A stretch of DNA of 64,000 bases from Silvimonas terrae (GTDB taxonomy: Bacteria; Pseudomonadota; Gammaproteobacteria; Burkholderiales; Chitinibacteraceae), in NCBI RefSeq assembly GCF_014202765.1, contig NZ_JACHHN010000005.1, positions 176,603 through 240,602 on the forward strand. The letters run 5' to 3'. Shown here piece after piece: positions 1,818 to 20,586 of the stretch. The notes below the pieces were generated by a model, which had not been told where the DNA came from, searched no databases, and was given only the letters and a program-made list of their open reading frames with translations. Position 1 is the first letter of the stretch, and every line of letters begins with the position of its first letter. A program made the translations under genes and the position numbers.

Positions 1818-1844
1818 TTTGTTGGCCTAAAACCTTGAACCGCT

Positions 1845-2375
1845 GTTAGCGCCTTCGGCGCGCTTGTTTACACACCGGCGGTGGCCGGAGCACGTCACTT
1901 TCTTTGCTTCGCCAAAGAAAGTAACCAAAGAAAGGCGACCCTGGCTTGGCGGCCCTCCGGGCTTCCCTCAGTCGGTCGGGAGCCTAAGGTCTCCCTCCAC
2001 TCCTTCGGCGCTGAGCCTTGACGGGGGAAGGTCCAAAACCAGGACAACAGCAAGATCAAAGACAGCGGCAACAGCAACAGCGGGGAAGGTTGGGAAACTC
2101 GCAGACAGACGGCTTGCGGGGTTGGGGTTGCAGTTGGGCCCCTTAAGGAGCGCTGAGCATCGCAGGGAAGTCCGGGGTTTCGGCGTAAGGGTGTTTGAGG
2201 GCGCAGCCCGAGTTCCCTGGAGCCAGCCGGACTTCACGAGAAGCGCAGGGGACCCGCGAAGCGGGCGCTCCGCCGGGGTCGCCTTTCTTTTGGTTACTTT
2301 TCTTTGGCGAAGCAAAGAAAAGTGACGTGGGCCCGGCACCCCGGGTTTGTAAACACCGCGCCGCCAGGCGCTAAC
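1845..2375. repeat. composite long inverted-repeat element, copy 1
   Basis: Intergenic element of 531 bp, bounded by GTTAGCGCC at the left and GGCGCTAAC at the right. The arms are long inverted repeats containing CTTTGCTTCGCCAAAGAAAG and its complement. The left half carries module Y (CCCTCCGGGCTTCCCTCAGT, then CGGGAGCCTAAGGTCTCCCT). The right half carries module X inverted (GAGCATCGCAGGGAAGTCC, then CGGGGTTTCGGCGTAAGGGT). The outer right arm has the variant GGGCCCGGCACCCCGGG, whereas the left has CCGGCGGTGGCCGGAGCA. Open frames crossing it are by-products of the repeat. It separates urtB from urtC inside an otherwise tight transporter operon. Confidence 0.85.
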
Positions 2376-2433
2376 AAATAACGCCACCACCAGGCAAAAC
2401 CGAAAACGCATTTTGAAACAGGAACCAACCTCT

Positions 2434-3645
2434 ATGCGTACTTCCTACACCGAACGCACCGCCCGCCTCCTTGGCCCCAAAGGCTGGACCGCGCTGGCCG
2501 TGTTCCTGGTCATCATGCTGATCGCCATGCCGGTGCTGCACCTCTTGGTGCCACCGGGTAACCCGCTGCATGTCTCCAACTACGCCATCACGCTCACCGG
2601 CAAGATTCTCTGTTACGCGCTGGTGGCCGTCGCCATGGATCTGATCTGGGGTTACGCCGGTATCCTCTCGCTGGGCCACGGCCTGTTTTTTGCCCTGGGC
2701 GGTTACGCGTTTGGTATGTATCTGATGCGGCAGATCGGGCTGGATGGCAACTACCACAGCCCATTGCCGGATTTCATGGTTTTCCTGGACTGGAAAACCC
2801 TGCCCTGGTACTGGCAAGGCACGGATCATTTTGTCTGGGCGGCGTTCCTCACGCTGGCCGTGCCCACCGTGATTGCCTTCATTTTTGGCTTCTTCGCCTT
2901 CCAGTCGCGCATCAAGGGGGTGTATTTCTCCATCATCACCCAGGCGCTGACCTACGCGGCCATGCTGCTGTTTTTCCGGAACGAAACCGGGTTTGGCGGC
3001 AATAACGGGTTTACTGATTTCAAACGCATCATGGGCTACTCGGTGACTGCGCCGGAAACCCGCGTGGTACTGCTGGGCCTGACTGCGCTGGCACTGGCCG
3101 GCACGCTGGTACTGGGCCGCTGGCTGGTGACCTCCCGTTTTGGCCGTGTGCTGGCCGCTACGCGCGATGCAGAGTCCCGCGTCATGTTCATCGGCTACAA
3201 CCCGCTCTGGTACAAGCTGTTCATCTGGACACTCTCGGCCGCGCTGTGCGGCGTGGCGGGGGCCTTGTACGTGCCGCAGGTGGGCATCATCAACCCGTCG
3301 GAGATGTCACCCGCCGCGTCGATTGAAATTGCCATCTGGGTGGCGGTGGGCGGGCGCGGCACGTTGATTGGTGCGGTGATCGGGGCGGTAGCAGTCAGCC
3401 TGGCCAAGAGCTGGTTTACGGTGTCGTTCCCGCAATACTGGCTGTTCTTCCTGGGTTTTCTGTTCATCCTCGTCACGCTGTTCCTGCCCGAAGGCCTGGT
3501 GGGCTTGTATCACAAGCTGCGCGGCAAACAACACGCGGCAGATGCAGAACCCGCGTTTACGCCTGATCCCGAAACCGTCAGCAGCCCGGCGCCCAAAGCC
3601 GCGTTGCCTGCGTCCCAACCCCACCTGACCGGAGAAAGCGCATGA
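2434..3645 (+). CDS. urtC: urea ABC transporter permease UrtC
   Basis: Second membrane permease of the urea importer, LivM type, 403 residues from ATG 2434. That start follows AGGA with good spacing; an in-frame TTG 21 bases upstream is possible but less likely. The protein has a hydrophobic core of 8-10 membrane segments, the LivM-like stretch AVAMDLIWGYAGILSLGHG near residue 67, and a soluble Pro/Ala-rich tail of about 40 residues. It forms the channel with UrtB. The stop overlaps the urtD start by four bases (ATGA), indicating translational coupling. It is separated from urtB by about 675 bases filled mostly by repeats, so transcription from urtB may be weakened or a second promoter may exist. 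Confidence 0.94.
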   Translation: MRTSYTERTARLLGPKGWTALAVFLVIMLIAMPVLHLLVPPGNPLHVSNYAITLTGKILCYALVAVAMDLIWGYAGILSLGHGLFFALGGYAFGMYLMRQIGLDGNYHSPLPDFMVFLDWKTLPWYWQGTDHFVWAAFLTLAVPTVIAFIFGFFAFQSRIKGVYFSIITQALTYAAMLLFFRNETGFGGNNGFTDFKRIMGYSVTAPETRVVLLGLTALALAGTLVLGRWLVTSRFGRVLAATRDAESRVMFIGYNPLWYKLFIWTLSAALCGVAGALYVPQVGIINPSEMSPAASIEIAIWVAVGGRGTLIGAVIGAVAVSLAKSWFTVSFPQYWLFFLGFLFILVTLFLPEGLVGLYHKLRGKQHAADAEPAFTPDPETVSSPAPKAALPASQPHLTGESA

Positions 3646-4484
3646 TCACCGTCGCGAGTGGCGAAGAATTGCAAACCCGCCCGCAATGGGCCGACCCTTC
3701 TGCGGGTCAGGCGCGTGCGGTACAGCCGGGCCAGGTGGATACCGCGCATGGCGTGATCCTGTATCTGGAAGACATCGCGGTCAGTTTTGACGGCTTCAAG
3801 GCGCTCAATAATCTGAGCCTGAATATCGACGTGGGCGAGTTGCGCTGCATTATCGGCCCCAACGGCGCGGGCAAGACCACCATGATGGATGTCATCACCG
3901 GCAAAACCCGGCCCGATAGCGGCAAGGCGTTTTTTGGCCAGACGCTGGACCTCACGTGGCTGAAAGAGCCGGAAATTGCCCACGCCGGTATTGGCCGCAA
4001 GTTCCAGAAACCCACGGTGTTCGAGAACCACACGGTGTTTGAAAACCTGGAACTGGCCATGAAGACCGACAAGCGCGTCTTCAAGAGTCTGTTCTTCAAA
4101 CTCGACAGCGAGGCCCACGGCCGCATTGACGCCGTGATGAAGCAAATCCGTCTCGATACCCATGCCAACCGCCTTGCCGGGCTGCTATCGCACGGGCAGA
4201 AACAGTGGCTGGAAATCGGCATGTTGCTGATGCAAGAACCCAAGCTCTTGCTGCTGGATGAGCCCGTTGCCGGTATGACTGATGACGAAACCATGCGTAC
4301 GGCAGAGTTGTTCCTCTCACTGGCCGGGCAGCATTCGCTGGTGGTGGTCGAGCACGATATGGCGTTTGTGGAAAAACTGGGCGGCAAGGTTACCGTGCTG
4401 CATGAAGGCAGCGTGCTGGCGGAAGGTGATCTGGCTTCAGTCCAGGCCGACCCGCGCGTGATCGAAGTCTATCTGGGCAGGTAG
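3642..4484 (+). CDS. urtD: urea ABC transporter ATP-binding protein UrtD
   Basis: Cytoplasmic ATPase subunit of the urea importer, LivG type, 280 residues. Walker A is GPNGAGKTT at about residues 72-80. The signature region is LSHGQKQWLEIGML, and Walker B is LLLLDEPVAGM, followed by a switch His in VVVEHDM. The first 40 residues form an extension ahead of the ABC domain (QTRPQWADPSAGQARAVQ), seen in many UrtD proteins. The start overlaps urtC by four bases and follows GGAGAAAG. The signature has LSHGQ in place of LSGGQ, which is usual for LivG/UrtD relatives. Confidence 0.94.
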   Translation: MITVASGEELQTRPQWADPSAGQARAVQPGQVDTAHGVILYLEDIAVSFDGFKALNNLSLNIDVGELRCIIGPNGAGKTTMMDVITGKTRPDSGKAFFGQTLDLTWLKEPEIAHAGIGRKFQKPTVFENHTVFENLELAMKTDKRVFKSLFFKLDSEAHGRIDAVMKQIRLDTHANRLAGLLSHGQKQWLEIGMLLMQEPKLLLLDEPVAGMTDDETMRTAELFLSLAGQHSLVVVEHDMAFVEKLGGKVTVLHEGSVLAEGDLASVQADPRVIEVYLGR

Positions 4485-4569
4485 GTCTGAGGTAGACCGG
4501 GCGTTCTCTTCCAGCATAGCGCCCCGGATTGCCACCCCGCGATGCGGGGCTACAAAAGAGGCATCAACC

Positions 4570-5262
4570 ATGTTGCAAGTTGAAAACCTGAACCAGTACT
4601 ACGGCGGCAGCCACATCCTGCGCGGACTGTCTTTTACCGCACAACCGGGGCAAGTGACTACGCTGCTGGGGCGCAACGGCGTGGGCAAGACTACCTTGCT
4701 GAAAACCTTGATGGGTCTTGTGCCGGCTAAAACCGGGTCGATCCAGTTTGGCGGGGCCGACATTACCCGCATGGCATCGTATGACCGGGTTAAAGCCGGC
4801 ATTGGCTACGTGCCGCAAGGGCGGGAAATTTTCAGCCGTCTTTCAGTGGAAGAGAATCTGCGCATGGGTCTCGCCACCCGCCCGGCCAGCGCCGCCATCC
4901 CGCCGCGTATTTTTGAAATGTTTCCGGTACTGCAACAGATGATGCGGCGACGTGGTGGGGATTTATCTGGCGGTCAGCAACAACAACTGGCGATTGGCCG
5001 GGCGTTGGCCATGGGGCCGAAGTTGCTGATTCTGGATGAACCGACGGAGGGGATTCAGCCGTCCATCATCAAGGATATTGAACGGGCGATCCGGGCGCTG
5101 GCGGAAACCGGGGAGATGGCGATTCTGGTCGTGGAACAATACTACGACTTTGCCCGCTCGCTGGCGGATCAATACCTGGTAATGGAGCGGGGGGAGATTA
5201 TCCGGGCGGGGAAAGGGAGTGAGATGGATGCGGATGGGGTGAGGGAGTTGTTATCTGTTTGA
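4570..5262 (+). CDS. urtE: urea ABC transporter ATP-binding protein UrtE
   Basis: Second ATPase subunit of the urea importer, LivF type, 230 residues. Walker A is GRNGVGKTT at residues 34-42, the signature is LSGGQQQQLAIGRAL, and Walker B is LLILDEPTEGIQPS; the TEGIQPS string is characteristic of UrtE. It probably pairs with UrtD as a heterodimer under UrtB/UrtC. The 85-base gap after urtD contains a small GC-rich palindrome (CCCCGC-GAT-GCGGGG) and then an AGAGG ribosome-binding site. It is the last gene of the operon; urease genes are not in the window. Confidence 0.94.
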   Translation: MLQVENLNQYYGGSHILRGLSFTAQPGQVTTLLGRNGVGKTTLLKTLMGLVPAKTGSIQFGGADITRMASYDRVKAGIGYVPQGREIFSRLSVEENLRMGLATRPASAAIPPRIFEMFPVLQQMMRRRGGDLSGGQQQQLAIGRALAMGPKLLILDEPTEGIQPSIIKDIERAIRALAETGEMAILVVEQYYDFARSLADQYLVMERGEIIRAGKGSEMDADGVRELLSV

Positions 5263-5696
5263 CCGTTCTGGTCTGGTGGGCATCTCCAGCTTTGTAGCCC
5301 GGATGGAGCCGCGCCCGCCCCCACAAAGCGAGTTGATGCACCGAATTACGGTTGCAGCGGGGAAGGCGGGAATCCGGGGTGGCGGGCTTGGTTAATATTG
5401 TTGTGGGTTGTTAGCGCCTTGCGGCGCAGGTCTTGTAAAAGCATTTGATACCGGCGGTGGCCGGAGCACGTCACTTTCTTTGGGGCCGCCGAGGTGCTTC
5501 GCCAGCCTCGGCGGCCCCAAGAAAAGTAACCAAAAGAAAGGCGACCCTGCGACAGCGCCCCTTCGGGGTTCCCTGCGCTTCTCGCAAGGCGCGGCAGGCT
5601 ACGGGAACTCGCCCTGCGGGCTCAGACCCCCCTCCGCCGAAACCCCGGGCCTTGCTGCGATGCTCGGCACTGCCGGAGGGGAGTTACGTCAAAAGC

Positions 5697-5738
5697 AACC
5701 CCAACCCCAACCCCAACCCCAACCCCAACCCCAACCCC
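5697..5738. repeat. AACCCC hexamer array (7 units)
   Basis: Seven uninterrupted copies of AACCCC within the centre of composite element 2. The complementary strand reads GGGGTT repeated, with enough G4 runs for a G-quadruplex. A single related unit occurs at the same place in the other copies of the element (for example GGGGTTGGGGTTG in copy 1), so the array looks like expansion of an element-internal motif. Confidence 0.9.
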
Positions 5739-5850
5739 GCAAACCGCCTGTACGCAAGATTGGCTAATTTGCGTCTCCACTACCTCGTCATTCCGGTCCT
5801 CGGCGGCCCCCTTGCGCCGGAATCCAGCCGCAGCCCAACGGGCTGCCTAC

Positions 5851-5884
5851 GGTGGATTGTCGCTTTGCTCCGAATCCACCCTAC
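5851..5884. repeat. REP-like palindrome, copy 2
   Basis: GGTGGATTGTCGC...CGAATCCACCCTAC, in inverted orientation relative to copy 1. It sits inside the centre of composite element 2. Confidence 0.8.
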
Positions 5885-6175
5885 AAAACCAACGAACAGA
5901 CGATTTGGTCGTTGCCGTTGGTTTTGCTTTGGACTTTCTTCCCCCCGTTAAAGCCAAGCGCCGATGGAGTGGAGGGAGACCCAAGGCTCCCGACCGACTG
6001 AGGGTAGCCCGGAGGGCCGCCAGGCTGGGGGCGCCTTTCTTTGGTTACTTTCTTTGGCGAAGCAAAGAAAGTAACGTGCTCCGGCCACCGCCGGTATCAA
6101 ATGCTTTTCACAACCGCGCCGTAAGGCGCTAACAACCTGGTTCTCGCCAGAGAACGGGGCCGTTCCGGCCCCAAC

Positions 6176-6205
6176 TGGATTCCGGCTCAAGGCCGGAATG
6201 ACGAG
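6176..6205. repeat. dRS3-like short inverted repeat
   Basis: CTGGATTCCGGCTCAAGGCC followed by GGAATGACGAG. ATTCCGG pairs with CCGGAAT around an 8-base-class spacer, resembling the ATTCCC-N8-GGGAAT repeats of Neisseria. Related copies lie at 13871-13898, 13946-13965 and 20729-20757; an interrupted copy lies at about 5788-5827. Confidence 0.7.
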
Positions 6206-6272
6206 TCATTGAAAGAGCGAGCAGCCTCGGCTGCAAATCCCGCCACCCCGCATGTCCAATGCGCCCCCTCCC

Positions 6273-6995
6273 TCACCCATCACCAAACAACGCCTGCAAC
6301 ACAGCCAGCACCGCCGGTCCGGCAGTCTCTGTTCGCAAAATGCGTGGTCCCAGCACGACAGCCTCAAACCCCACCGCCCGCGCTGCATTTTCTTCGCCGT
6401 CCGACAAACCACCCTCCGGCCCGACCAGTAACACCACCTGCGTCTGCGGTGCCGGCAACGCCGCCAGCCGTGTCGCCGCGCCCGGTGCCAGCAACAACCG
6501 AGTGGCGTCTTTCGGTGCTGCGGCCAAAGCGTCCGCCAGCGTGGTCACCGGCAAGATCTGCGGAATCCGCGTCCGCCCGCTTTGCTCGCAAGCGGATTGC
6601 GCGACGCCTTGCCAGTGCGCCAGACGCTTTTGCGCGCGCTCGCCAGACAGGCGCTGCTGGCTGTAGGCCCCGTGCACCGGCCAGATTTTGGTCACGCCCA
6701 GTTCGGTGGCTTTCTGGATGGTGTAATCCATGCGCTCGGCCGCAGATACCGCCTGGATCAGAATGGTGCGCAACGGGGATTCGCGATCTTCTGGCGTATA
6801 GCCAATGACGATCACGGCCACATCGCGCTTGCCCATCAGGGTGATGCGCGCTTCGTATTCACCGCCTTCGCCGTTAAACAGCGTGATGGTCTCGCCGGGT
6901 TGCATGCGCAAAACCTGCACGTGGCGGGCCGGGCCTTCGGGCAGGTTGAAGGCGTTGTCTACAGATAAGGCGTGGTCGACAAAAAAGCGCGGCAT
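6273..6995 (-). CDS. rsmE: 16S rRNA (uracil-1498-N3)-methyltransferase RsmE
   Basis: SPOUT-class methyltransferase that makes m3U1498 in 16S rRNA using S-adenosylmethionine. The 240-residue length fits the family. The N-terminal part (MPRFFVDHAL, then LPEGPARHVQVLRMQPGE) is the PUA-like RNA-binding domain. The C-terminal trefoil-knot motif is LLVGPEGGLSDGEENAA, followed by LGPRILRTETAGPAVLAVLQ. It is transcribed leftward and divergently from ilvA across a gap of about 180 bases, and stands alone between repeats and ilvA. Confidence 0.95.
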   Translation of the reverse strand: MPRFFVDHALSVDNAFNLPEGPARHVQVLRMQPGETITLFNGEGGEYEARITLMGKRDVAVIVIGYTPEDRESPLRTILIQAVSAAERMDYTIQKATELGVTKIWPVHGAYSQQRLSGERAQKRLAHWQGVAQSACEQSGRTRIPQILPVTTLADALAAAPKDATRLLLAPGAATRLAALPAPQTQVVLLVGPEGGLSDGEENAARAVGFEAVVLGPRILRTETAGPAVLAVLQALFGDG

Positions 6996-7176
6996 TGCGG
7001 CAAATCCAGCGGGCAGTAAAACATCTATTCTGGCAGATCGTGCGGCTTCATCGCCAGATAGCGACTGTATTGCTGACTTTGTAGTCAGATTGCTTCATGA
7101 CTCAAACATAAGCTTGTGGCTACAATGCAAGACCCGGTCTTTTGCCGGGCCTCATCACTCACTGCCGGATAACACC

Positions 7177-8697
7177 ATGTCTGAAGCCACGAACGACTAT
7201 CTGGAACGAATCCTCACCGCCCGCGTTTACGACGCTGCCATTGAAACACCGCTGGAAGCCGCGCCGAATATTTCGCGCCGTATTGGCAACCATGTGTTCA
7301 TCAAGCGCGAAGATATGCAACCGGTGTTCTCGTTCAAGATTCGTGGCGCATACAACCGCATGGCGCAACTGACCCCGGCGCAACTGGAACGCGGTGTGGT
7401 CACGGCTTCGGCCGGCAATCACGCGCAGGGCGTGGCGTATTCGGCGCAATTGTTGAAATGCCGCGCGACCATTTTCATGCCGACCACTACACCCAACATC
7501 AAGGTGGATTCGGTTACGCGCCGTGGCGCGGAAGCCGTGCTGGTGGGCGAATCGTTCAGCGACTGTTACCAAAGCGCAGTGAACCTGGCCGAGGAAACCG
7601 GCGCGGCGTTTATCCATCCGTATGATCATCCGGATGTGATTGCCGGGCAGGGCACGATTGCCATGGAAATCCTGCGTCAGCATTCAGGCAAGCTCGATGC
7701 CATTTTCATTCCGGTCGGCGGCGGCGGTTTGATCGCTGGCGTGGCGGCGTATATCAAGCGCCTGCGGCCAGAGGTCAAGATCATTGGCGTAGAGCCGACC
7801 GACGCCAATGCCATGTACCTCTCGCTCAAGCTGGGCGAGCGCGTGGTGTTGCCGCAAGTGGGTATCTTTGCCGATGGCGTGGCCGTCAAACAGGTGGGCG
7901 AAGAAACCTTCCGCCTGTGCCAGGAACTGGTCGATGAAGTGATCCTGGTCGATACCGATGCCATGTGCGCGGCCATCAAGGACATGTTTGAAGAAACGCG
8001 TTCCATCCTGGAGCCGTCCGGTGCGCTGGCCATTGCCGGCCTGAAAGCCTGGGTAGCGCGGGAGAAAGTGCAAGACCAGACGCTGGTGGCGATCACCTCT
8101 GGCGCCAACATGAATTTTGACCGCCTGCGTTACGTGGCCGAACAAGCCGAACTGGGTGAAGAGCGTGAAGCCATCATCGCCGTCACGCTGCCAGAGCGTC
8201 CGGGTGCTTTCCGGGCGCTGTGCAGCGCCATTGGCGCGCGCAATATCACCGAGTTCAACTACCGTTATGGCGACAAGGATCAGGCCCACGTGTTTGTGGG
8301 CCTGCAGATTCAGAACCGCGCCGAGGTGACCGATCTGATCGAAAAACTGGCCGCCGAAAAACTGGCGGGGGTGGACCTGACCGATAACGAACTGGCCAAG
8401 CTGCATATTCGCCATCTGGTTGGTGGTCATGCACCGCAAGTGGATAACGAACGCGTACTGCGCTTTGAGTTTCCGGAACGCCCGGGCGCGCTGCTGAACT
8501 TTTTGAACAGCATGGTTGGCACCTGGAATATCTCTTTGTTCCACTACCGCAATCACGGTGCCGATTATGGGCGCACGCTGGTCGGTATTCAGGTGCCGCC
8601 ACAGGATGACGCCGCATTTGCCGATTTCCTGGAAAAACTGGGCTACCCGCACTGGCTGGAAACCGACAACAAGGCGTATCAGCTGTTTCTGGGGTGA
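7177..8697 (+). CDS. ilvA: threonine ammonia-lyase, biosynthetic (IlvA)
   Basis: PLP enzyme converting threonine to 2-oxobutanoate, the first step of isoleucine synthesis. ATG 7177 gives 506 residues, matching the long biosynthetic form; longer in-frame starts upstream run through the rsmE-ilvA spacer and are unlikely. The PLP lysine is in FSFKIRGAYN (about K54), and the phosphate-binding glycine loop is VGGGGLIAG. The C-terminal ~180 residues hold two ACT-like regulatory modules, each opening with a FPERPGA or LPERPGA motif, which points to feedback control by isoleucine. A strong hairpin terminator follows at 8822-8850. Confidence 0.96.
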   Translation: MSEATNDYLERILTARVYDAAIETPLEAAPNISRRIGNHVFIKREDMQPVFSFKIRGAYNRMAQLTPAQLERGVVTASAGNHAQGVAYSAQLLKCRATIFMPTTTPNIKVDSVTRRGAEAVLVGESFSDCYQSAVNLAEETGAAFIHPYDHPDVIAGQGTIAMEILRQHSGKLDAIFIPVGGGGLIAGVAAYIKRLRPEVKIIGVEPTDANAMYLSLKLGERVVLPQVGIFADGVAVKQVGEETFRLCQELVDEVILVDTDAMCAAIKDMFEETRSILEPSGALAIAGLKAWVAREKVQDQTLVAITSGANMNFDRLRYVAEQAELGEEREAIIAVTLPERPGAFRALCSAIGARNITEFNYRYGDKDQAHVFVGLQIQNRAEVTDLIEKLAAEKLAGVDLTDNELAKLHIRHLVGGHAPQVDNERVLRFEFPERPGALLNFLNSMVGTWNISLFHYRNHGADYGRTLVGIQVPPQDDAAFADFLEKLGYPHWLETDNKAYQLFLG

Positions 8698-8702
8698 GAC
8701 GG

Positions 8703-8815
8703 GTAGGGTGGATTCGGAACGTGCCGGTACCCCGCAAAGAGGCTGAGCGTTACGGATAGCGGCCGGCAGTGACAATCCACCGGTGGATTGCTACGCGAAT
8801 CCACCCTGCGGGCCA
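8703..8815. repeat. degenerate REP-like palindromes, tandem
   Basis: GTAGGGTGGATTCGGAACG begins a copy whose closing CAATCCACC lies about 75 bases away. A second, inverted piece follows at once (GGTGGATTGCTACGCGAATC, then CACCCTG). The insertion between the arms makes this the most diverged member of the REP-like family here. Confidence 0.65.
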
Positions 8816-8821
8816 GACCAC

Positions 8822-8850
8822 AAAAGCGGGGACTGCAATCCCCGCTTTTT
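8822..8850 (+). terminator. rho-independent terminator after ilvA
   Basis: AAAAGCGGGG and CCCCGCTTTT flank an 8-base loop, followed by T. It lies after ilvA and before cca and is symmetrical enough to act in both directions. Confidence 0.85.
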
Positions 8851-8908
8851 CATTTGGGCCCGGTTACAATCAAACCAATCACCGTATTCAACGCAAACAG
8901 GTTTTGAC

Positions 8909-10156: not shown

Positions 10157-10220
10157 AATACACGGCTGGTATCATTACGCACAGCCTGTGCCGATTGTCC
10201 CAAACCCACCGAGCCCGCCC

Positions 10221-13171: not shown

Positions 13172-13251
13172 CCCTGCCGTACACGACCGGGCTTGCGCAA
13201 GGCGGGCCCGGTCTGGTTGGATAGCACTTTTATGCCATTCAGGAGTGCTGC

Positions 13252-13851
13252 ATGTACACGGTTCACGGCGTCGCCCAGTCCGGTAATTGCTACAAGGTCA
13301 AACTGGCCCTGAGCCAACTGGAAAAGCCCTTTACCTGGCATGAAGTGGACATGATGAACGGCGCCACGCACGCGCCGGAATTCCTCGCCATGAACCCCGC
13401 CGGCCAGGTACCGGTACTGCAGATTTCCGCCAGTTCTTTTCTGCCGGAATCCAACGCCATCCTGTATTACCTCGCACAAGGCTCCAGCCTGTTTCCCGAA
13501 GACCGGCTGGAACAGGCGCAGGTCATGCAGTGGTTGTTCTTCGAGCAATATAAACATGAGCCGAACCTGGCGGTGGCGCGGTTCATCGTCCTGTTTGCCG
13601 GCCGCCCGGCCGAGCGCGAAGCGCAGTTGCAACAGAAGATCAAAGCCAGTGCAGATGTGCTGGCCGTGATGGAACAGCATCTGTCGACGCGACGGTTCTT
13701 TGTGGGCGAGCGTTATTCCATTGCGGATATCGCCCTGTACGCCTATACGCACAGGGCACATGAAGGGCTGATTGATCTGGCGCCGTTTGGGGCGGTGCGG
13801 GCGTGGCTGGAACGCGTGGCGGGGCAGCCGGGGTATGTGGCAATGGGGTGA
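13252..13851 (+). CDS. glutathione S-transferase family protein
   Basis: Cytosolic GST of 199 residues. The N-terminal thioredoxin-like domain (MYTVHGVAQSGNCYKVKLAL) carries a Ser/Asn-Cys near the usual catalytic position. The motif PAGQVPVLQ includes the conserved cis-proline, and PESNAILYYLA is the glutathione gamma-Glu-binding ESNAI stretch. The C-terminal helical domain includes FVGERYSIADIALYAY, the N-capping box of the hydrophobic staple. Specific substrate unknown; detoxification or stress response is the usual role. The ribosome-binding site is AGGAG, and a GC-rich inverted repeat lies upstream at 13185-13213. Confidence 0.88.
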   Translation: MYTVHGVAQSGNCYKVKLALSQLEKPFTWHEVDMMNGATHAPEFLAMNPAGQVPVLQISASSFLPESNAILYYLAQGSSLFPEDRLEQAQVMQWLFFEQYKHEPNLAVARFIVLFAGRPAEREAQLQQKIKASADVLAVMEQHLSTRRFFVGERYSIADIALYAYTHRAHEGLIDLAPFGAVRAWLERVAGQPGYVAMG

Positions 13852-13945
13852 AGGAGTTTCCTCCTCTAACCCGTCATTCCGCCGCACGCTGGAATCCAGA
13901 GTCAGGATGCTTGCTGGAATGAGCGGCTTGCTCCTCCTCATCGTC

Positions 13946-13965
13946 ATTCCCGCGAAGGCGGGAAT
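13946..13965. repeat. dRS3-like repeat, exact ATTCCC-N8-GGGAAT
   Basis: ATTCCC, 8 bases, GGGAAT, exactly fitting the Neisseria dRS3 consensus. A diverged copy lies just upstream at 13871-13898 (GTCATTCCGCC...GGAATCCAG). It sits between the GST gene and composite element 3. Confidence 0.8.
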
Positions 13966-14005
13966 CCAGTCCGGCCACTGCAAGTGGCCTTTGCCAATGC
14001 TGGCA

Positions 14006-14039
14006 GTAGGGTGGATTCGGAGCGAAGCGACAATCCACC
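14006..14039. repeat. REP-like palindrome, copy 3
   Basis: GTAGGGTGGATTCGGAGCGA, then AGCGACAATCCACC: the cleanest palindromic copy. It lies 11 bases ahead of the left end of composite element 3. Confidence 0.85.
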
Positions 14040-14049
14040 ATTGCAATGC

Positions 14050-14581
14050 GTTAGCGCCTTCGGCGCGGCGTGAAAAGCATTTGATACCGGCGGTGGCCGG
14101 AGCACCCTACTTTCTTTGCTTCGCCACCTCGGCGGCCCCAAAGAAAGTAACCAAAGAAAGGCGACCCCAGCCTTGCGGCCCTCCGGGCTTTCCTCGGTTG
14201 GTCGGGAGCCTAAGGTCTCCCTCCACGCCCTCGGCGCTGGGCTTTTATGGGGGAGGAAGTTAAAAGCAACAACAACCCCATGAAGCGTCCATTCGCGGGA
14301 TTAAGGCATACGAGAAATTGTCACTAACGAATCAAAATCACACAACAGATTCGCGACCAGTTGGTTTGGATGTTGCTGTTGTTTTTGACGTTCTCCCCGT
14401 TCAAGGACTTTTCCGATTGAGGGAGGGAGACCCAGGCTCCCGACTGATTGAGGGTATCGCGGAGCGAAAAAGTCCGGGGTCGCCTTTCTTTGCTTACTTT
14501 CTTTGGCGAAGCAAAGAAAGTAAGGTGCTCCCGCCACCGCGGGTATCAAATGTCTTTCACTCCCGCGCCGTCAGGCGCTAA
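14050..14581. repeat. composite long inverted-repeat element, copy 3
   Basis: About 532 bp from GTTAGCGCC to GGCGCTAA (the last base of the consensus end is changed). Both halves carry module Y (CCCTCCGGGC...CGGGAGCCTAAGGTCTCCCT, and its complement at the right), so this is the most symmetrical copy. The centre has GTTAAAAGCAACAACAACC facing GTTGCTGTTGTTTTTGACG. It fills most of the 833-base gap between the GST and TSUP genes. No gene is seen in it. Confidence 0.85.
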
Positions 14582-14684
14582 TACGCAGTTTCATTCCTTC
14601 AAGTCCACGTTCGGGTTGCGCACAATATTCACGCAACACAGCTAATGGCAAGCTGTCAGCCTGATCCTCACCCCAGTACCCGTC

Positions 14685-15455
14685 ATGATTGACCCCAGCA
14701 CCATCGCCCTGTTGATTCCGTTGTCTTTTGTCGCCGGCATGATTGATGCCGCTGTCGGCGGGGGCGGTTTGATTCAGGTGCCGGGCCTGTTTGCCATTCT
14801 GCCCAATGTCGCCCCGGCCACGCTGATGGGCACAAACAAGTTTGCCAGCATCATGGGCACGGCATCGGCGACGTGGCGGTACGCGCGCCAGGTCAAGCTG
14901 GACTGGCACATTCTGCTGCCTTGCGCCGTGGCGGCGTTTCTGGGGTCTTACGGTGGCGCCAGCATGATCCAGTTGCTGGATAAACACTGGGTGCGGCCGC
15001 TGGTCATCATTTTGCTGGCCGTCATGCTGGTCTATACGTGGATCAAACCCACCTTCGGTACGGAAGATGCCGGTCGGCCGCTGACCCGGCGTGATTTGTA
15101 TGTGGGCCTGGTCATCGGCGCGTGCATCGGGTTCTATGACGGGTTTTTCGGGCCGGGCACGGGCTCATTTCTGATCTTTTTGTTTGTGCGCTTCTTTCAT
15201 TTTGATTTTCTGCGGGCATCCGCCTCGGCCAAGGTGGTGAATCTGGCGACCAACCTCGCCGCGCTGGTGTCCTTTATTCCGGTGGGCGCGGTGATCTATG
15301 GTTATGCCATACCCATGGCAGCCGCCAACGTGGCTGGCGCGCAACTGGGTAGCCGTATGGCGCTCAAGGGCGGCAACACCTGGATTCGTCGCCTGTTCCT
15401 GACGCTGGCCATTGTGCTGTTGGCAAAATTGATTTGGGATACCTTGCACGCATGA
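14685..15455 (+). CDS. TSUP/TauE-SafE family membrane permease
   Basis: Polytopic inner-membrane protein of 256 residues of the sulfite exporter/TauE/SafE family. It has about 7-8 hydrophobic segments and the family repeat pattern: VAGMIDAAVGGGGLIQVP near residue 16 and its counterpart IGACIGFYDGFFGPGTGSF near residue 146. The substrate is not predictable; relatives move sulfite, sulfoacetate or similar anions. The stop overlaps the start of the EVE-domain gene (ATGA), suggesting one transcript. Confidence 0.88.
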   Translation: MIDPSTIALLIPLSFVAGMIDAAVGGGGLIQVPGLFAILPNVAPATLMGTNKFASIMGTASATWRYARQVKLDWHILLPCAVAAFLGSYGGASMIQLLDKHWVRPLVIILLAVMLVYTWIKPTFGTEDAGRPLTRRDLYVGLVIGACIGFYDGFFGPGTGSFLIFLFVRFFHFDFLRASASAKVVNLATNLAALVSFIPVGAVIYGYAIPMAAANVAGAQLGSRMALKGGNTWIRRLFLTLAIVLLAKLIWDTLHA

Positions 15456-15916
15456 GTACTCGCCCCGTTCACTACTGGCTGATGAAGTCAGAACCCGATG
15501 AAGCCGGCATTGATCACCTGGCGCGTGACGGCAAGCTGGGCTGGTTTGGCGTGCGCAATTACCAGGCGCGCAATTTCATGCGGGATCAAATGCAGGTGGG
15601 GGATGTGGTGCTGTTCTATCACTCCAGCTGCCCGGAGCCTGGTATCGCCGGGATTGCCGAAGTATGTACCGGCGCGTATCCAGACCCCACCCAGTTTGAG
15701 CCGGACTCCAAATACTTTGATCCGAAATCCAGCAGTGAAAATCCGCGCTGGATGCAGGTGGATGTGAAGTTTGTGAAGAAGACCCGGTTGATGGGCTTGC
15801 CGGAAATGCGCGCCATGCCAGAGCTGGCAGAGATGCAAGTGCTGCAGCGGGGTAACCGGCTGTCGATCACGCCGGTGAGCCGCGCCGAGTGGGACGCGAT
15901 CAGCAAGAAGTTGTGA
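15452..15916 (+). CDS. EVE-domain protein (thymocyte nuclear protein 1 type)
   Basis: 154-residue protein that is a single EVE (PUA-like) domain: HYWLMKSEPDEAGIDHLARD at the start, then WFGVRNYQARNFMRDQMQVGD and VLFYHSS. EVE domains are thought to bind modified nucleobases in DNA or RNA; the role of stand-alone bacterial members is not settled. ATG 15452 overlaps the preceding stop by four bases. The C-terminal LQRGNRLSITPVSRAEW is typical of the family. Confidence 0.9.
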   Translation: MSTRPVHYWLMKSEPDEAGIDHLARDGKLGWFGVRNYQARNFMRDQMQVGDVVLFYHSSCPEPGIAGIAEVCTGAYPDPTQFEPDSKYFDPKSSSENPRWMQVDVKFVKKTRLMGLPEMRAMPELAEMQVLQRGNRLSITPVSRAEWDAISKKL

Positions 15917-15959
15917 GACCCAGGCATGTTTGCCATGGCAAACATGCGTCGCACAAAAG

Positions 15960-15989
15960 AAAAAAGGCACCTGCATCAAGCAGGTGCCC
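15960..15989 (-). terminator. strong hairpin with leftward T tract
   Basis: GGCACCTGC and GCAGGTGCC (15966-15974 and 15980-15988) around a 5-base loop. The A run at 15959-15965 becomes a T tract on the minus strand, so the structure terminates leftward transcription. It also lies behind the EVE-domain gene, where it lacks a T run. See the small minus-strand ORF at 16005-16151. Confidence 0.75.
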
Positions 15990-16004
15990 TAAAGCTCGTG
16001 CCAG

Positions 16005-16151
16005 TTAAGGCGACAGAGCGTTGTCAACCGCACACGAGCAGCTCTCGCCGCCCGCACGGTAATAACGGGGTGTTTTTCCGCCTGGTTGACACATTTCGCA
16101 AAATTTTTTCAAAAATGTACCCAAATCGGGAAAAGCCCCAAAAAGGTGCAT
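16005..16151 (-). CDS. candidate small Cys-containing ORF or sRNA
   Basis: Minus-strand frame of 48 codons from ATG 16151 to TAA 16005, ending 16 bases before the strong leftward terminator at 15960-15989. The predicted peptide contains CEMC and CSC and has the part GGKTPRYYRAGGESCSCA. No clear ribosome-binding site precedes the ATG, so it could instead be a small RNA, or chance. It is divergent from nudC. I do not recognise a family; the case rests on the otherwise unexplained leftward terminator. Confidence 0.3.
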   Translation of the reverse strand: MHLFGAFPDLGTFLKKFCEMCQPGGKTPRYYRAGGESCSCAVDNALSP

Positions 16152-16214
16152 TTGTTTGCCGTGCTCAAGCACTGTGTCATCAACTTTTATGATGACAGCG
16201 CGTATGATGAATCC

Positions 16215-17048
16215 ATGCCGCTCTCCAGCTTTGTTCCCGCTTTTGCCTCCCGTTGCGCCGATGACGAAGCGCGTTGCTATGCCTTCGTGGGCGACGAGTT
16301 GTTGCTTGATGACAACCGTGGTTTGCCACGGGCGTCTGTGCTGATTGAACAGCTTGGGCCGCCAGAACTGGACTATCTGGTGGGGCATCGGGCCGGCCAG
16401 CCTTGTCGGTTGCTGTTCTGGCCGCAAACCACCCAGGCGCCCGCCGGCTGGGTAAACCACAACCTGCGTGCCATTTATGGCCATATGGATGAAGCGGATT
16501 TCTGGATCGCCACGCGCGCCAAGCAAATGGCGACGTGGGATCGGGAACATCGCTTCTGCGGCGTTTGCGGCACCAGAACCGAAGTGGCCGAGCGTGAACC
16601 TGCGCGTGCTTGTCCGGCCTGCGGACACCGCCATTATCCGCGTGTCTCGCCAGCCATCATGGTGTTGATCCGGGACGGTGACCGGTTGCTGCTGGCGCGC
16701 TCGCCACATTTCAAACCAGGTATGTACAGCGCCCTGGCCGGGTTTGTTGAGGCCGGAGAGTCCTGCGAGGACACCATCCACCGCGAGGTGATGGAAGAAG
16801 TGGGTTTGCGCGTCAAAAACCTGCAATGGTTCGATAGCCAGAGCTGGCCATTTCCGCATTCGTTGATGCTGGCCTTCAATGCCGATTACGATGGCGGCCA
16901 GATCGTCTGCCAGCCCGAAGAGATTGAAGACGCACAGTGGTTCACCCTCGATAAGCTACCCGACTTGCCCATGGGGGCCAGTATTGCGCGGCACCTGATT
17001 GAAGCCACCATCAAGCGCATGCGCGCAGACGCCGCCATCGATCAGTGA
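16215..17048 (+). CDS. nudC: NAD(+) diphosphatase NudC
   Basis: Nudix hydrolase that cleaves NADH/NAD and removes NAD caps from RNA 5' ends. ATG 16215 gives 277 residues; an upstream in-frame ATG (16086) would add an unlikely N-terminus. A zinc ribbon (CGVCGTRTEV...CPACGHRHYPR) precedes the Nudix box GFVEAGESCEDTIHREVMEE. The NADH-specific array SQSWPFPHSLML follows, which separates NudC from other Nudix enzymes. A monocistronic arrangement is likely. Confidence 0.94.
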   Translation: MPLSSFVPAFASRCADDEARCYAFVGDELLLDDNRGLPRASVLIEQLGPPELDYLVGHRAGQPCRLLFWPQTTQAPAGWVNHNLRAIYGHMDEADFWIATRAKQMATWDREHRFCGVCGTRTEVAEREPARACPACGHRHYPRVSPAIMVLIRDGDRLLLARSPHFKPGMYSALAGFVEAGESCEDTIHREVMEEVGLRVKNLQWFDSQSWPFPHSLMLAFNADYDGGQIVCQPEEIEDAQWFTLDKLPDLPMGASIARHLIEATIKRMRADAAIDQ

Positions 17049-17249
17049 CAAGCCGGCGAACCGCATGCTAAGGTCTTTGGCATGAACCGTGTGTTTGCCT
17101 CCCCTTTTTCTCTGTGGCACGCCTCCTGGCCTTTGATCGCCCAGGGGTGAGTGCTTTTTGCCATCCTGGCGAGGTTTACCGGGACGGGATGGCAGCGCAG
17201 TAATCCACACTCAACTCACGGTCCTCGCCCCACGGCCAAGGAACCGTGA

Positions 17250-18164
17250 ATGACTGAAACCACACTTTCCGCCCCCGTTGAACATGCAGACGCCCGCTTT
17301 CGCTTTGGCGTTGTTCTGGCATTGTTTGCGGCTACCGGTTTTGCCTCCAAAGCCATCTTTGTGAAGCTGGCCTATCGTTATCACGTTGATGCGGTGACCT
17401 TGCTGACGCTGCGGCTGGCGCTGGCCTTGCCCATGTTCTGGCTGGTGAAACTCGCCCGGCGGGAAGATGGCCCACCCATGACACGGGCAGATCGCTGGCA
17501 ACTGATTGGCCTGGGTCTGGCCGGGTATTACCTCTCTAGCCTGTTCGATTTTCTGGGGCTGGTAACGGTCAGCGCCAGTCTGGAACGGCTGATCCTGTTT
17601 CTGTACCCCACCTTCACCGTGCTGTTATCGGCCGTGTTTGCCCATCACCCCATTACCCGTCGCGTGGCCGGTGCGCTGGTGATTTCCTATACCGGCATGC
17701 TGCTGGTGCTGTGGCCAGAACTCTCCGCCGCGCAAGGCACCTGGCTGGGCATCGGGCAGGTGTTTCTCAGCACCTTGTGTTACGCCGTATTCCTGACCTT
17801 TAGCCCGCGCGTGATCGCCCGCGTGGGCGCCATGCGCTTTACCGAAAATGCCCTGACCGTCTCTGCCGCCGCCATGTTGACTCACTTTGCCCTGACCCGC
17901 TCGTGGTCGGCGCTGGTATTGCCATGGCCAGTGTGGGCATATGCTGCGGTGATTGCGTTGGTGGCGACCGTATTTCCCATCTACGCGCTGGCTGCGGCCA
18001 TGGCCCGCATTGGTGCACCCCGCACGGCCATTATTGGCAGCATGGGCCCGATTCTGACCATCTTTCTGGGGGTGCTGATCCTGCATGAGCACCTCACCTC
18101 ATTACAATGGCTGGGCACGGTGGTCGTCATGGCCGGGGTCTGGCGGATCAGTCACAAGAAATAA
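17250..18164 (+). CDS. DMT-superfamily (EamA) transporter
   Basis: 304-residue inner-membrane protein with about ten hydrophobic helices in two EamA halves. The first opens FGVVLALFAATGFASKAIFVKL and includes SLERLILFLYPTFTVLL, the family hallmark. The second closes with GSMGPILTIFLGVLILHEHL. Members export amino acids or metabolites; the substrate here is unknown. The ribosome-binding site is AAGGAA. The PatB/MalY-type lyase gene follows 12 bases downstream, so the two may be co-transcribed, compatible with export of a sulfur-amino-acid-related compound, though that is inference. Confidence 0.85.
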   Translation: MTETTLSAPVEHADARFRFGVVLALFAATGFASKAIFVKLAYRYHVDAVTLLTLRLALALPMFWLVKLARREDGPPMTRADRWQLIGLGLAGYYLSSLFDFLGLVTVSASLERLILFLYPTFTVLLSAVFAHHPITRRVAGALVISYTGMLLVLWPELSAAQGTWLGIGQVFLSTLCYAVFLTFSPRVIARVGAMRFTENALTVSAAAMLTHFALTRSWSALVLPWPVWAYAAVIALVATVFPIYALAAAMARIGAPRTAIIGSMGPILTIFLGVLILHEHLTSLQWLGTVVVMAGVWRISHKK

Positions 18165-18176
18165 CAAGGATTGCGG

Positions 18177-19331
18177 ATGTTTGATTTTGATACGGTCATC
18201 AACCGTCGCGACAGCGACAGTACCAAGTGGCGCAAGTACGGCGAAGACGTTCTGCCGCTGTGGGTGGCGGATATGGACTTTGCCTCGCCACCCGCCATTA
18301 CCGAGGCCTTGCAGGCGCGCGTGGCCCATGGCGTGTTCGGCTATCCGGACCCGCAAGCCTCGCTGGTGCAGACGCTGGTCATGGCCATGCAGCGCGACTA
18401 CCACTGGCAGATTCAGCCAGACTGGCTGGTGCCGCTGCCAGGCTTGGTGGTGGGCCTGAATGTGGCCTGCCGGGCCACCGGCAGCCACGACGATCCGGTG
18501 CTGACCGCCACGCCGGTTTACCCGCCATTCATGAGTGCACCCGTGCTCTCGCAACGCCGCCTTGTGCGCGTTCCGATGCTGGAAGCCGATACGGCCGATG
18601 GCGCGCATTGGGCATGGGATATCGATCAACTGGTCAGCAGCCTGGGGCCGGGCAACAACACGCTGATGCTGTGCCACCCGCACAACCCGGTCGGCCGCGT
18701 CTGGCGCACTGAAGAGCTGCTGCAACTGGCCGCTGTGGCGCAGCGCCACGACATGATCGTGGTCAGCGATGAAATCCACTGCGATCTGATCCTGGACGCG
18801 GAACACAAACACGTGCCGTTTGCTGCGCTCTCTGAAGACGCTGCCCAGCGCAGCATTACGCTGATGGCACCCTCCAAGACCTACAACGTGCCGGGCCTGG
18901 GTTGTTCCTTTGCCATCATTCCCAACCCGGCGCTACGCAAGCGCTTTGCCGATGTCATGCGCGGCATCGTGCCGCATGTGAACATTTTCGGCTATGTAGC
19001 GTGCGAAGCCGCCTACCGTGATGGCGTGGCCTGGCGTGCCCAATTGCTGGACATTCTGCGGCGCAACCGTGATCTGGTGATGCAACAACTGGATGGCTAT
19101 CAAGGGCTGCGCGTGACCCGGCCAGAAGCCACGTACCTGGCCTGGGTAGATTGCCGGGCGACCGGCATCGAGGACCCAGCCGCGTTTTTTGAAGCAGCGG
19201 GTGTGGGTTTGTCCAGCGGGGCGGATTTTGGCCTCAAAGGCTTTGTCCGGCTGAACTTTGGTTGCGCGCTGGGCACCCTGCAAGAAGCCCTGCACCGCAT
19301 GCGCGAAGCCCTGGCCAATCGCGCCAGTTAG
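18177..19331 (+). CDS. PatB/MalY-type PLP C-S lyase or aminotransferase
   Basis: Fold-type I PLP enzyme of 384 residues from ATG 18177. The family start FDFDTVINRRDSDSTKWRKY and LPLWVADMDFASPPAI identify the MalY/PatB (cystathionine beta-lyase) group. The PLP lysine is in APSKTYNVPGLGCSFAI, and the cofactor motif is VVSDEIHCDL. The likely reaction is beta-elimination on cystathionine or cysteine conjugates. It lies 12 bases behind the DMT transporter. True aminotransferase activity is a less likely alternative. Confidence 0.87.
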   Translation: MFDFDTVINRRDSDSTKWRKYGEDVLPLWVADMDFASPPAITEALQARVAHGVFGYPDPQASLVQTLVMAMQRDYHWQIQPDWLVPLPGLVVGLNVACRATGSHDDPVLTATPVYPPFMSAPVLSQRRLVRVPMLEADTADGAHWAWDIDQLVSSLGPGNNTLMLCHPHNPVGRVWRTEELLQLAAVAQRHDMIVVSDEIHCDLILDAEHKHVPFAALSEDAAQRSITLMAPSKTYNVPGLGCSFAIIPNPALRKRFADVMRGIVPHVNIFGYVACEAAYRDGVAWRAQLLDILRRNRDLVMQQLDGYQGLRVTRPEATYLAWVDCRATGIEDPAAFFEAAGVGLSSGADFGLKGFVRLNFGCALGTLQEALHRMREALANRAS

Positions 19332-19406
19332 CCGGGATTGCCGCGTTTGCAGCCATGGGCCTGTGCACGCGGTAAGCTGCGGCGATCTGTGAAGAGGGGC
19401 GGGATC

Positions 19407-19985
19407 ATGGCCAAAACATCGGTGCAATATCAGTTTGCAGACATCGGGCAGAACCGGGAAAACTGGCAAGCCGCGCGCGAACGCCTGCAACGTTTCAACG
19501 ATCCTGCCACCTCTGATGCTGACCGTGCCGCGTTATTGCCGTTGCTGTTTGGCCAGGCCGAAGGCGCCAGCGTCACCCCACCGTTATTTGTTGCCGCCGG
19601 CCACAACGTACACCTGGGCAAGAAAGTGTTCGTCAACCTGGGCCTGACCATTTCTGGCAGCGCCCCGGTGATCATTGGCGACTACACCCTGATCGCGCCC
19701 TGGGTGCAAATCCACAGCACCACGCACCCCGTAGACCCGTGGGAACGCCAACAAGTGGCGTTCACAGCCAAACCGGTGACCATTGGCGAAAATGTCTGGA
19801 TCGGCGCGGGCGCCATTATTTGTCCTGGTGTGACGATAGGCGATCACGCCGTGATTGGCGCGGGGTCTGTGGTCACGCAAGACGTGCCCCGCTGCACGCT
19901 GGTGGCGGGTAACCCGGCCAGTGTGGTGAGGGCGCTGGATGAGCCGGATATGGCGACGATTTATCTGAAGCGGCAGGAAGGGTAA
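19407..19985 (+). CDS. hexapeptide-repeat O-acetyltransferase (Maa/NodL type)
   Basis: 192-residue acyltransferase with a left-handed beta-helix. Hexapeptide repeats run from VHLGKKVFVNLGLTI through VTIGENVWIGAGAIICPGV and IGDHAVIGAGSVVTQDVP, and the C-terminus is VAGNPASVVRAL. This is the maltose/galactoside O-acetyltransferase class. The catalytic histidine is probably that in IHSTTHPVDP. ATG 19407 follows GAGGGGCGGG; an upstream in-frame start at 19338 is unlikely. The acceptor sugar is unknown. Confidence 0.87.
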   Translation: MAKTSVQYQFADIGQNRENWQAARERLQRFNDPATSDADRAALLPLLFGQAEGASVTPPLFVAAGHNVHLGKKVFVNLGLTISGSAPVIIGDYTLIAPWVQIHSTTHPVDPWERQQVAFTAKPVTIGENVWIGAGAIICPGVTIGDHAVIGAGSVVTQDVPRCTLVAGNPASVVRALDEPDMATIYLKRQEG

Positions 19986-20011
19986 GGGGCGCAGCAAAAC
20001 AGGAAAGCGTT

Positions 20012-20586
20012 GTTAGCGCCTGCGGCGCGGGTTTTTTACATGTCGGGGGTAGCCCGATAGCCAGGCACTTTCTTTTGGGTCGCCAAAAGAAAGTGCCCAA
20101 AGAAAAGGCGACCCCTGCGACTGCGCCCGCTGCGCGGGTTCCCTGTGCTTCTCGCGAAGTCCGGCTGGCTCCAGCCCCGCTTCTACTGTCATCCGATGGG
20201 ATGATCAACTTTGTGGGGGTACCCCCAAGGGGCAGGAACTCGCTTCGCTCAAACACCCTTACGCCGAAACCCCGGACTTCGCTGCGATGCTCGGCGCAGT
20301 CAAGGGGACAACGGCCAAACCCGCTGGGCGCTAGCAGCCATGGTTTTCGTTGTTGCAGTTGGGGTTGTTTTTGACTTTCCTCCCCCATTAAAGCCCAGCG
20401 CCGAAGAAGGGAGGGAGACCTTAGGCTCCCGACTGACTGAGGGCAGCCCGGAGGGCCGCCAGGCTGGGGTCGCCTTTCTTTGGTTACTTTCTTTGGGGCC
20501 GCCGAGGTGGCGAAGCAAAGAAAGTGACGTGGGCCCGGCACCCCGGGTATCAAACGCTTTTCACACCTGTGCCGTCAGGCGCTAAC
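20012..20586. repeat. composite long inverted-repeat element, copy 4
   Basis: 575 bp from GTTAGCGCC to GGCGCTAAC. The left half carries module X (CTGTGCTTCTCGCGAAGTCC, AAACCCCGGACTTCGCTGCG) and the right half module Y inverted (CTTAGGCTCCCGACTGACTG). The left outer arm has its own variant (TCGGGGGTAGCCCGATAG); the right has the GGGCCCGGCACCCCGGG variant also seen in copy 1. The centre ends GTTGCAGTTGGGGTTGTTTT. With flanking repeats it fills the 895-base gap before msbA, where I find no gene. Confidence 0.85.

Follow-up and report, generated by a model that had tools for sequence, protein, structure and literature searches.

What are the four long inverted-repeat elements that lie between genes in a 64,000-nucleotide stretch of the Silvimonas terrae genome (contig NZ_JACHHN010000005.1, positions 176,603 to 240,602; the whole stretch is called the window here), and what could have put them there? 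A preliminary description, made from the letters alone, took them for a four-copy family of composite elements, either non-autonomous mobile elements or large-hairpin regulatory units. We find that the repeating unit is the half-unit and not the composite, that this unit is probably mobile, and that each arm folds on one strand. We lean towards reading the elements as a family of non-autonomous mobile repeats whose arms encode a folded, outward-reading RNA that is used, or was once used, in copying.

All four elements were found where the preliminary description had placed them, each with two half-units in inverted orientation around a centre. The common boundary GTTAGCGCC...GGCGCTAAC was recovered as well, element 3 being the exception in that it ends in GGCGCTAAT. 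The two half-unit types, X and Y, are also real: in the genome of the window (G000; 4.83 Mb, 15 contigs) the Y signature occurs at 98 places and the X signature at 35, with none in either control, and the combinations Y/X, X/Y, Y/Y and X/Y are as claimed, the right arm of element 3 being untyped by our script and Y-like by eye. The family is, in contrast, far larger than four copies. The core pattern AAAGAAARGCGACC, with up to one mismatch, lies at 146 places genome-wide compared with 6 for the reversed control, and most genome copies are single half-units. With core, Y and X counts this far above their controls, the half-unit matches are not due to chance.

Halves were catalogued in 132 regions fetched from the core, Y and X lists, a lower bound since the core list gave 100 of its 146 places. 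A hairpin-based scan found at least 145 halves in 122 of these regions (87 Y, 53 X and 5 untyped). Where two halves of this genome stand within 1.2 kb of each other they face in 22 of 23 cases, the remaining one being tandem, and 19 of the 20 typed pairs join an X to a Y (X/Y 11, Y/X 8, Y/Y 1, X/X 0); two further pairs, window element 3 among them, have one arm untyped by the script. Thus, Y/X and X/Y are mostly one X+Y heterodimer in two orientations.

The arrangement extends to other organisms, in which loci were located with the core pattern or through their similarity with element 1. A covariance model matched 101 units in 71 such loci and 28 units in another 23. Neighbouring units no more than 1.5 kb apart face each other in 29 of 30 pairs of the larger set (one tandem pair, L016) and in 5 of 7 pairs of the smaller (L163, L164, L182, L212 and L218; the opposite arrangement occurs in L162 and L182), that is, in 34 of 37 pairs when both sets are joined. 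The inner ends of the 29 facing pairs are 28-383 bp apart in 25 cases, overlap in 1 and are 782-1079 bp apart in 3. Model R1, built on 28 X units of G000, matched all 8 arms of the window with E values from 1.3e-43 to 6.2e-5.

A half-unit is about 215-285 bp long. Read inward, it begins with (T)GTTAGCGCC, which bears a small GC hairpin, and continues with a second GC-rich hairpin (CCGGCGGTGGCCGG and variants), with ACTTTCTTTG-loop-CAAAGAAAGT, with a third purine tract, CCAAAGAAAGGCGACCCC, and with module X or Y, before a common inner end, GGGGGAGGAAAGTCAAAAGCAAC, passes into an imperfect (NNCAAC)n tail. The base that precedes GTTAGCGCC is T at 129 of the 143 ends that were located, a small number of which the script misplaced. 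Because both types have the same two ends, X and Y are two versions of the middle. In a full composite, such as element 2, the order read by eye leads from X through a tail, a GCAAACCGTCTG-like motif, a CGTC-tagged palindrome, GCAGCCC, a GGTGGATTGTCGC palindrome, CAGACGATTTGG and a second tail to Y. In some copies (5410-6133, 14050-14581 and 20012-20586) the CTTTCTTTG stem is tipped by an additional GGGGCCGCCGAGG palindrome or by one of its arms. The inner tail of single units is a hexamer microsatellite that varies by copy (GGCAAC, TGCAAC, CCCAAC and GCCAAA, with AGCAAC in the sister genome G399), which suggests slippage after insertion.

The arms fold on one strand. In 46 X-like units of other organisms, scored for Watson-Crick pairs only, the helix flanking the conserved AACTC...CTCAAACA motif reached a mean of 12.35 with its own partner compared with 5.89 for partners from other loci (sd 1.60, n=2054). 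Mismatches in those of the helices that score at least 6 are A·C in 24 instances and G·T in 1, read on the inward strand, and the A·C surplus appears in all eight organism groups, as assigned by us, that have either kind. One variable pair, close to the hairpin stem base, is A·C in 35 of 102 units at our own loci, in 5 of 28 at loci from the sister search and in 51 of 114 elsewhere, and in none is it G·T; these are related and non-independent copies, some of the own ones counted twice and a few of the sister-search ones coming from G000. Inward A·C mismatches are G·U on the complement, and therefore the folding strand is the one that reads outward.

Consensus folding gives -50.2 kcal/mol outward and -39.6 inward for 44 X units of G000, where 20 of the 51 predicted pairs have changed on both sides, and -54.8 outward versus -45.1 inward for 50 Y units. 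When the named structure was counted on 28 own X units, excluding three stem columns misaligned by tract length variants, 98.7% of cells were paired and 16 of 50 pairs had changed on both sides; 0 of 500 shuffles reached the observed value, and slid controls were 39-52% paired. The 101 matches in the 71 other-organism loci were 94.3% paired, with both-side changes at 44 of 46 pairs and slid controls at 40-52%, in an alignment that was fitted to the model and hence leans towards it. Since each arm folds alone into a specific branched structure on one strand, a large-hairpin unit is not the best description of the element.

Beside the hairpin the stem purine tract (CTTTCTTT on the inward strand) recurs as a third copy, which mirrors asymmetric tracts, as in AAAGAAAAG with AAAAGAAAGG, AAAAGAAAG with AAAGAAAAGG and AAGAAAAG with AAAAGAAGG. 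Among 195 units, 108 have symmetric and hence uninformative tracts; the 87 asymmetric ones comprise 71 mirror-only, 0 direct-only and 1 fitting both, with 15 fitting neither. A mirror relation is expected of a pseudoknot that contains a U·A-U triple helix, and the lack of direct-only cases led us to reject both a simple direct repeat and another Watson-Crick pairing as accounts of the third tract. Seen from the outward strand, this third copy forms a pyrimidine loop able to run parallel to the stem purine strand (U·A-U, C+·G-C). Additionally, the loop of the stem is complementary to the bases after the third copy, a relation that is kept, by eye, in about ten variants (CTTCGC/GGCGA, CTTGTG/CACA, CTTGCC/GGCA, CTGCTG/CAGC, CTCGGC/GGCCG and others) and broken in at least three single-unit rows, for example CTTCCC and TCTCAC with GGCGA. 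An H-type pseudoknot with a triple helix is predicted in the arm, and the triple helix presumably forms in the folded strand. In telomerase RNA, too, an H-type pseudoknot has a U-rich loop as third strand on the A-rich strand of its stem. The two would work alike, with no relation claimed, and in contrast to that RNA we deal here with a bacterial repeat and no telomerase.

The unit is probably mobile. Fourteen sites, selected because their outer flanks are unique, were compared with the sister genomes G398, G399 and G400, and at 9 of them (L024, L046, L049, L050, L058, L078, L107, L111 and L148) at least one sister is without the hairpin while both flanks align. Some of these empty sites are unclean: in G399, remnants of the X module persist at L058 and of the right arm at L111, while in G398 about 180 bp of other DNA occupy L050; L058 and L050 were therefore counted by G400 and L111 by G398. 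Units are present in the compared relatives at L055, L066 and L072, L117 is undecidable, and L071 gave no locus. States differ in finer ways as well. L107 holds a pair in G000 and G398, a single X unit in G399 and none in G400; at element 1, the gap that separates urtB from urtC holds this Y/X pair in G398 too, one Y unit at a different position in G399 and no unit in G400. We infer that gain, and not loss alone, lies behind the empty sites. Of the two possibilities first considered, that of a non-autonomous mobile element is supported by the defined outer end, the large number of dispersed halves, the differences between sister species in having a unit or not, and the lack of any coding capacity found.

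Similarity between copies bears on how the family has changed. Of 1084 between-copy tracts (at least 90% over 120 bp), 217 start at the GTTAGCGCC end and 55 outside it. The rest start mostly at inner module borders, around 30, 60 and 90, which suggests mosaic exchange or gene conversion between copies. What the preliminary description took for halves exchanged or recombined is mostly the orientation of the one heterodimer, although these borders do point to some exchange. Units L138 and L139 of G000 (C8:148 kb and C8:159 kb) are Y units about 10 kb apart whose flanking repeats are partly common, 90% over 346 bp from -116; a larger segment was therefore copied or converted there.

The family is widespread. 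The core motif was present in 13 of 398 genomes of the phylum at up to 2 mismatches, and in 25 of 43 genomes of the family at 3 mismatches, G000 included in both counts and controls at 0. With the covariance model, 68 of 200 order genomes and 42 of 109 genera were positive; at most 13 candidates were scored per genome, so copy numbers are lower bounds. Matches extend to the Pasteurellaceae and to a fusobacterium: among the hosts of model matches (E up to 0.01) are Pasteurella, Aggregatibacter, Variovorax and Thiobacillus, with a weak match in Ilyobacter (Fusobacteriota; E 1.3e-4). In a scan of named genomes, hosts among the matches listed are Variovorax, Xenophilus, Polaromonas, Acidovorax, Thiobacillus, Silvimonas and Jeongeupia, as well as Aggregatibacter, Mannheimia, Actinobacillus, Cardiobacteriaceae and others. 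Eighteen plasmid records of 29 kb to 4.9 Mb, mostly above 200 kb, matched too. Silvimonas loci have the same ends and both X and Y modules. G400, with 0 cores by pattern, has divergent hairpins in two fetched loci and is thus unit-poor, not unit-free.

The explanation that we favour builds on the observed anatomy, the facing pairs, the one-strand folding, the mirror relation of the third strand and the filled and empty sister sites. In its full form an element consists of a short centre and, on either side, an inverted arm that faces it. On the strand that reads outward from centre to element end, each arm carries a folded structure some 190 nt long. This starts with a long, branched hairpin that bears the conserved apical motif UGUUUGAG-[hairpin]-CGAGUU and continues with the predicted H-type pseudoknot, in which the pyrimidine loop would follow the stem purine strand as a third strand (U·A-U and C+·G-C triples); GC-rich end hairpins, one or two in number, close it. 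We infer that the folded strand is RNA, not single-stranded DNA, and it would serve, or have formerly served, the copying of the element. A helper enzyme, encoded elsewhere or since lost, would move the element in trans. Single halves may be partial or end-derived copies, and copies would swap segments.

Several results weigh against this explanation. G000 has no Y1_Tnp and no RVT_1 match (TnpB, IscB, IS110 and DDE were not searched), and no target-site duplication is visible at the sites read, whose flanks have diverged. Most similarity tracts start inside the unit, many near 30, 60 or 90. Of 136 outer flanks, 88 fall into four recurrent classes, two with GTAG-type palindromes, one with a CTCTGGCGAGAACC palindrome and one with a AAAACCTTGAACC motif; because the flanks recur, either the DNA inserted into was non-random or the unit in truth extends further in some cases. 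A phage origin was rejected, there being no match in 50,697 phage records or in IMG/VR, the latter searched with one exact pattern only. Covariation in Y units is weak, with more than one Watson-Crick type at 5 of 40 pairs, single-sequence folding of element 2 (5410-5690) does not separate the strands (z -3.48 vs -3.13), and RNAalifold on a plain alignment of the 46 other-organism units, too poor to fold, returned the loop helix only. A scan of 1800-6200 for sigma-70-type promoters gave 0 matches compared with 0.9 in shuffles.

The likeliest alternative is that the folded strand is a single-stranded DNA end recognised by an HUH (Y1-type) transposase, and the arm a terminal inverted repeat (TIR) moved in trans. 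Repetitive extragenic palindromes (REPs) and the TIRs of TIRtrons are thought to be structured ends of this kind, strand-specific folding is expected under a single-stranded DNA mechanism too, and facing dimers and heterodimers in REPs and dimeric repeated TIR families for genes like RAYTs (REP-associated tyrosine transposases) have been described (PMC3733652). Among the 200 order genomes, 122 have Y1_Tnp, and these are somewhat more often element-positive: 49 genomes have both, 19 the element only, 73 Y1 only and 59 neither (p 0.02, uncorrected for relatedness). However, Y1_Tnp is missing from G000 despite its 146 core matches and from 18 further of the 68 element-bearing genomes, and no unit stands at any of 30 Y1 loci among those listed (model, E <= 0.1). 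The association across the order is weak; an HUH enzyme is possible, with none seen in G000 now. A RAYT origin was rejected on these grounds, and we hold the single-stranded DNA alternative to be unlikely. Reverse transcription by an RVT_1 enzyme of the own genome was likewise rejected: RVT_1 has 0 matches in G000, G398 and G400 and 1 in G399.

Several described families of repeats come close to the elements. The TIR repeats of RAYT-like TIRtrons are likewise long inverted terminal repeats, dispersed, often dimers and without genes of their own (PMC3733652); unlike theirs, the arms studied here lie in a genome with no Y1_Tnp and away from the 30 listed Y1 loci of the order, are about 215-285 bp long, have a branched fold and a predicted triple-helix pseudoknot, and span many genera. 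Of the TIRtron motif GGGGWSAS we noted no match, by eye only, the inner end here having a GGGGAGG-type stretch. REPs and their composites, bacterial interspersed mosaic elements, tagged GTAG or CGTC, share with our elements an intergenic position, high copy number, palindromes and facing dimers (PMC3733652), and REP-like palindromes of both tags were found beside and inside the elements. REPs, in contrast, are 20-40 bp hairpins with a GTAG/CGTC tag (PMC3733652), whereas the present arms are much longer and end in GTTAGCGCC, and G000 is without a RAYT (Y1_Tnp) gene (0 matches).

Miniature inverted-repeat transposable elements (MITEs) of bacteria, such as RUP, NEMIS and ERIC, are also non-coding, with inverted ends and filled and empty sites (PMC3733652), and the MITE traits of inverted terminal repeats and no coding capacity found are present here. 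Our elements differ in that their arms keep a one-strand structure across genera; no target-site duplication was seen at the sites read, where flanks have diverged, and no parent transposon was found, some wide pairs carrying genes of which the four ORFs scanned (L328, L329 and L330) belong to no family above cut-off. The MRSC-65-2 motif is structured and occurs in dozens of copies per genome across phyla (PMC11109978); set apart by its description there, it is a single long stem with UYCCGG as opposed to branched with a pseudoknot.

The preliminary statements that no named family matches and that no protein is recognisable both survived scrutiny. No Rfam 15 family matched at a unit in the stretches scanned, which led us to reject a known RNA identity: the whole window at gathering score had 4 matches, all away from the elements, and seven unit-bearing loci at E <= 1 had 4, none at a unit. 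Literature text searches, which covered few subscription papers, brought up no such family. For seven open reading frames (ORFs) that lie within or cross the elements, Pfam gave no match up to E 1, and a protein-coding identity was rejected.

A host-useful RNA in the 3' regions of genes, with the arms kept as stabilisers, decoys or terminators, appears improbable. It would account for single units being commoner in convergent than in divergent gaps (32 and 13 of 98, with simple codon-score gene calls), and triple helices do stabilise RNA ends in other settings. The outward structured strand, however, opposes the upstream gene for many copies, orientation being mixed (56 of the 98 the same, 42 opposite), and presence varies between sister species; a strict 3' untranslated-region element was rejected because of the mixed orientation. 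A double-stranded DNA feature without RNA, whose mirror purine tracts form H-DNA or bind a nucleoid protein, agrees with those tracts, which fit intramolecular DNA triplexes too, and with dispersed, mostly intergenic copies, but is highly improbable, since H-DNA needs neither inverted arm, nor matching loop helix, nor branched hairpin, and the one-sided G·U pattern is unexpected for protein sites on duplex DNA.

Beyond the mobile repeats that we favour, one could think of a new class of mobile elements that move through, or are guided by, a triple-helix pseudoknot RNA, one per end, and are able to take up genes between their arms. We consider this doubtful. Pick-up of genes is raised by small uncharacterised ORFs between outward-reading arms 0.78-1.13 kb apart in six other-organism loci (L328, L329, L330, L332, L159 and L177); L328-L330 and L332 were selected for arm spacing, and cargo is thus a lead, not a rate. 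Four between-arm ORFs (L328, two of L329, L330) have no Pfam family above cut-off and none in PADLOC. One of the ORFs between arms, L328:1094-1621, encodes an uncharacterised 175 aa product that is PD-(D/E)XK nuclease-like by eye, with no family matched. At L331:2138-3343 a TIR-domain protein of the CAP12/Pycsar kind (PF10137, E 1.3e-18) lies between units, after a ribonucleotide-reductase-like ORF (by eye); the two arms there are 3 kb apart, and because a weaker third unit (3452-3719) stands beside one of them, these genes more likely lie between two separate elements.

Two of the Rfam matches in the window deserve mention in their own right. Positions 38846-38930 (-) match C4 antisense RNA with 73 bits, an RNA known from P1/P7-type phages, and a prophage or its remnant may therefore lie nearby. 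Positions 49085-49176 (-) match anti-hemB (Burkholderia RNA 7) with 70 bits.

Table. Composite elements of the window and their parts; on the arms, the strand is the outward structured one, and E values are those of model R1.
Feature	Position	Strand	Basis and remarks
Composite element 1 (Y/X)	1845..2375		Between urtB and urtC; ends and arms read, genes identified
Y-type arm, element 1	1893..2025	-	E 7.9e-11
X-type arm, element 1	2139..2327	+	E 1.3e-43
Predicted H-type pseudoknot with triple helix, element 1 X arm	2279..2326	+	Sequence reading; loop and third-strand relations. Parts: TCGCC 2279-2283; third strand TTTCTTTT 2284-2291; stem 2293-2306 / 2313-2326; loop GCGAAG 2307-2312
Composite element 2 (X/Y), full-length form, REP-bearing centre	5410..6133		Ends and arms
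X-type arm, element 2, with extra GGGGCCGCCGAGG palindrome at stem tip	5469..5681	-	E 4.1e-38
Centre of element 2	5682..5939		By eye; comparable layout in further copies. Order: (AACCCC)n tail, GCAAACCGCCTG motif, CGTC-tagged REP-like palindrome, GGTGGATTGTCGC palindrome, CAGACGATTTGG motif, GTTG-rich tail
Y-type arm, element 2	5940..6076	+	E 2.4e-10
Composite element 3 (Y/Y; right arm a Y variant by eye), right end GGCGCTAAT	14050..14581		Ends and arms
Left Y-type arm, element 3	14105..14242	-	E 6.2e-5
Right Y-like arm, element 3	14395..14525	+	E 8.5e-10; untyped by script
Composite element 4 (X/Y)	20012..20586		Without unit at the G398 site; right-arm remnant in G399
Ninth, weak match, overlapping element 4	20017..20098	+	E 0.0047
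X-type arm, element 4, with ~60 nt insert beside apical hairpin	20063..20308	-	E 6.4e-36
Y-type arm, element 4	20383..20529	+	E 7.9e-7

The family described here is real, widespread and apparently unnamed. Gene-free inverted-repeat elements are of a known kind, and the structured arms are new to the sources searched: a strongly covarying structure that the model found in 68 of the 200 order genomes had no Rfam match where scanned. Should the folded strand be RNA, bacteria would have a repeat RNA that contains a long U·A-U triple helix, and one-strand folding together with a fixed outer end would allow direct tests of how gene-free repeats spread. Should it be single-stranded DNA, structured-end transposition would reach further than before. 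Either way, proteins predicted from these stretches, where no Pfam match was found, are likely spurious.

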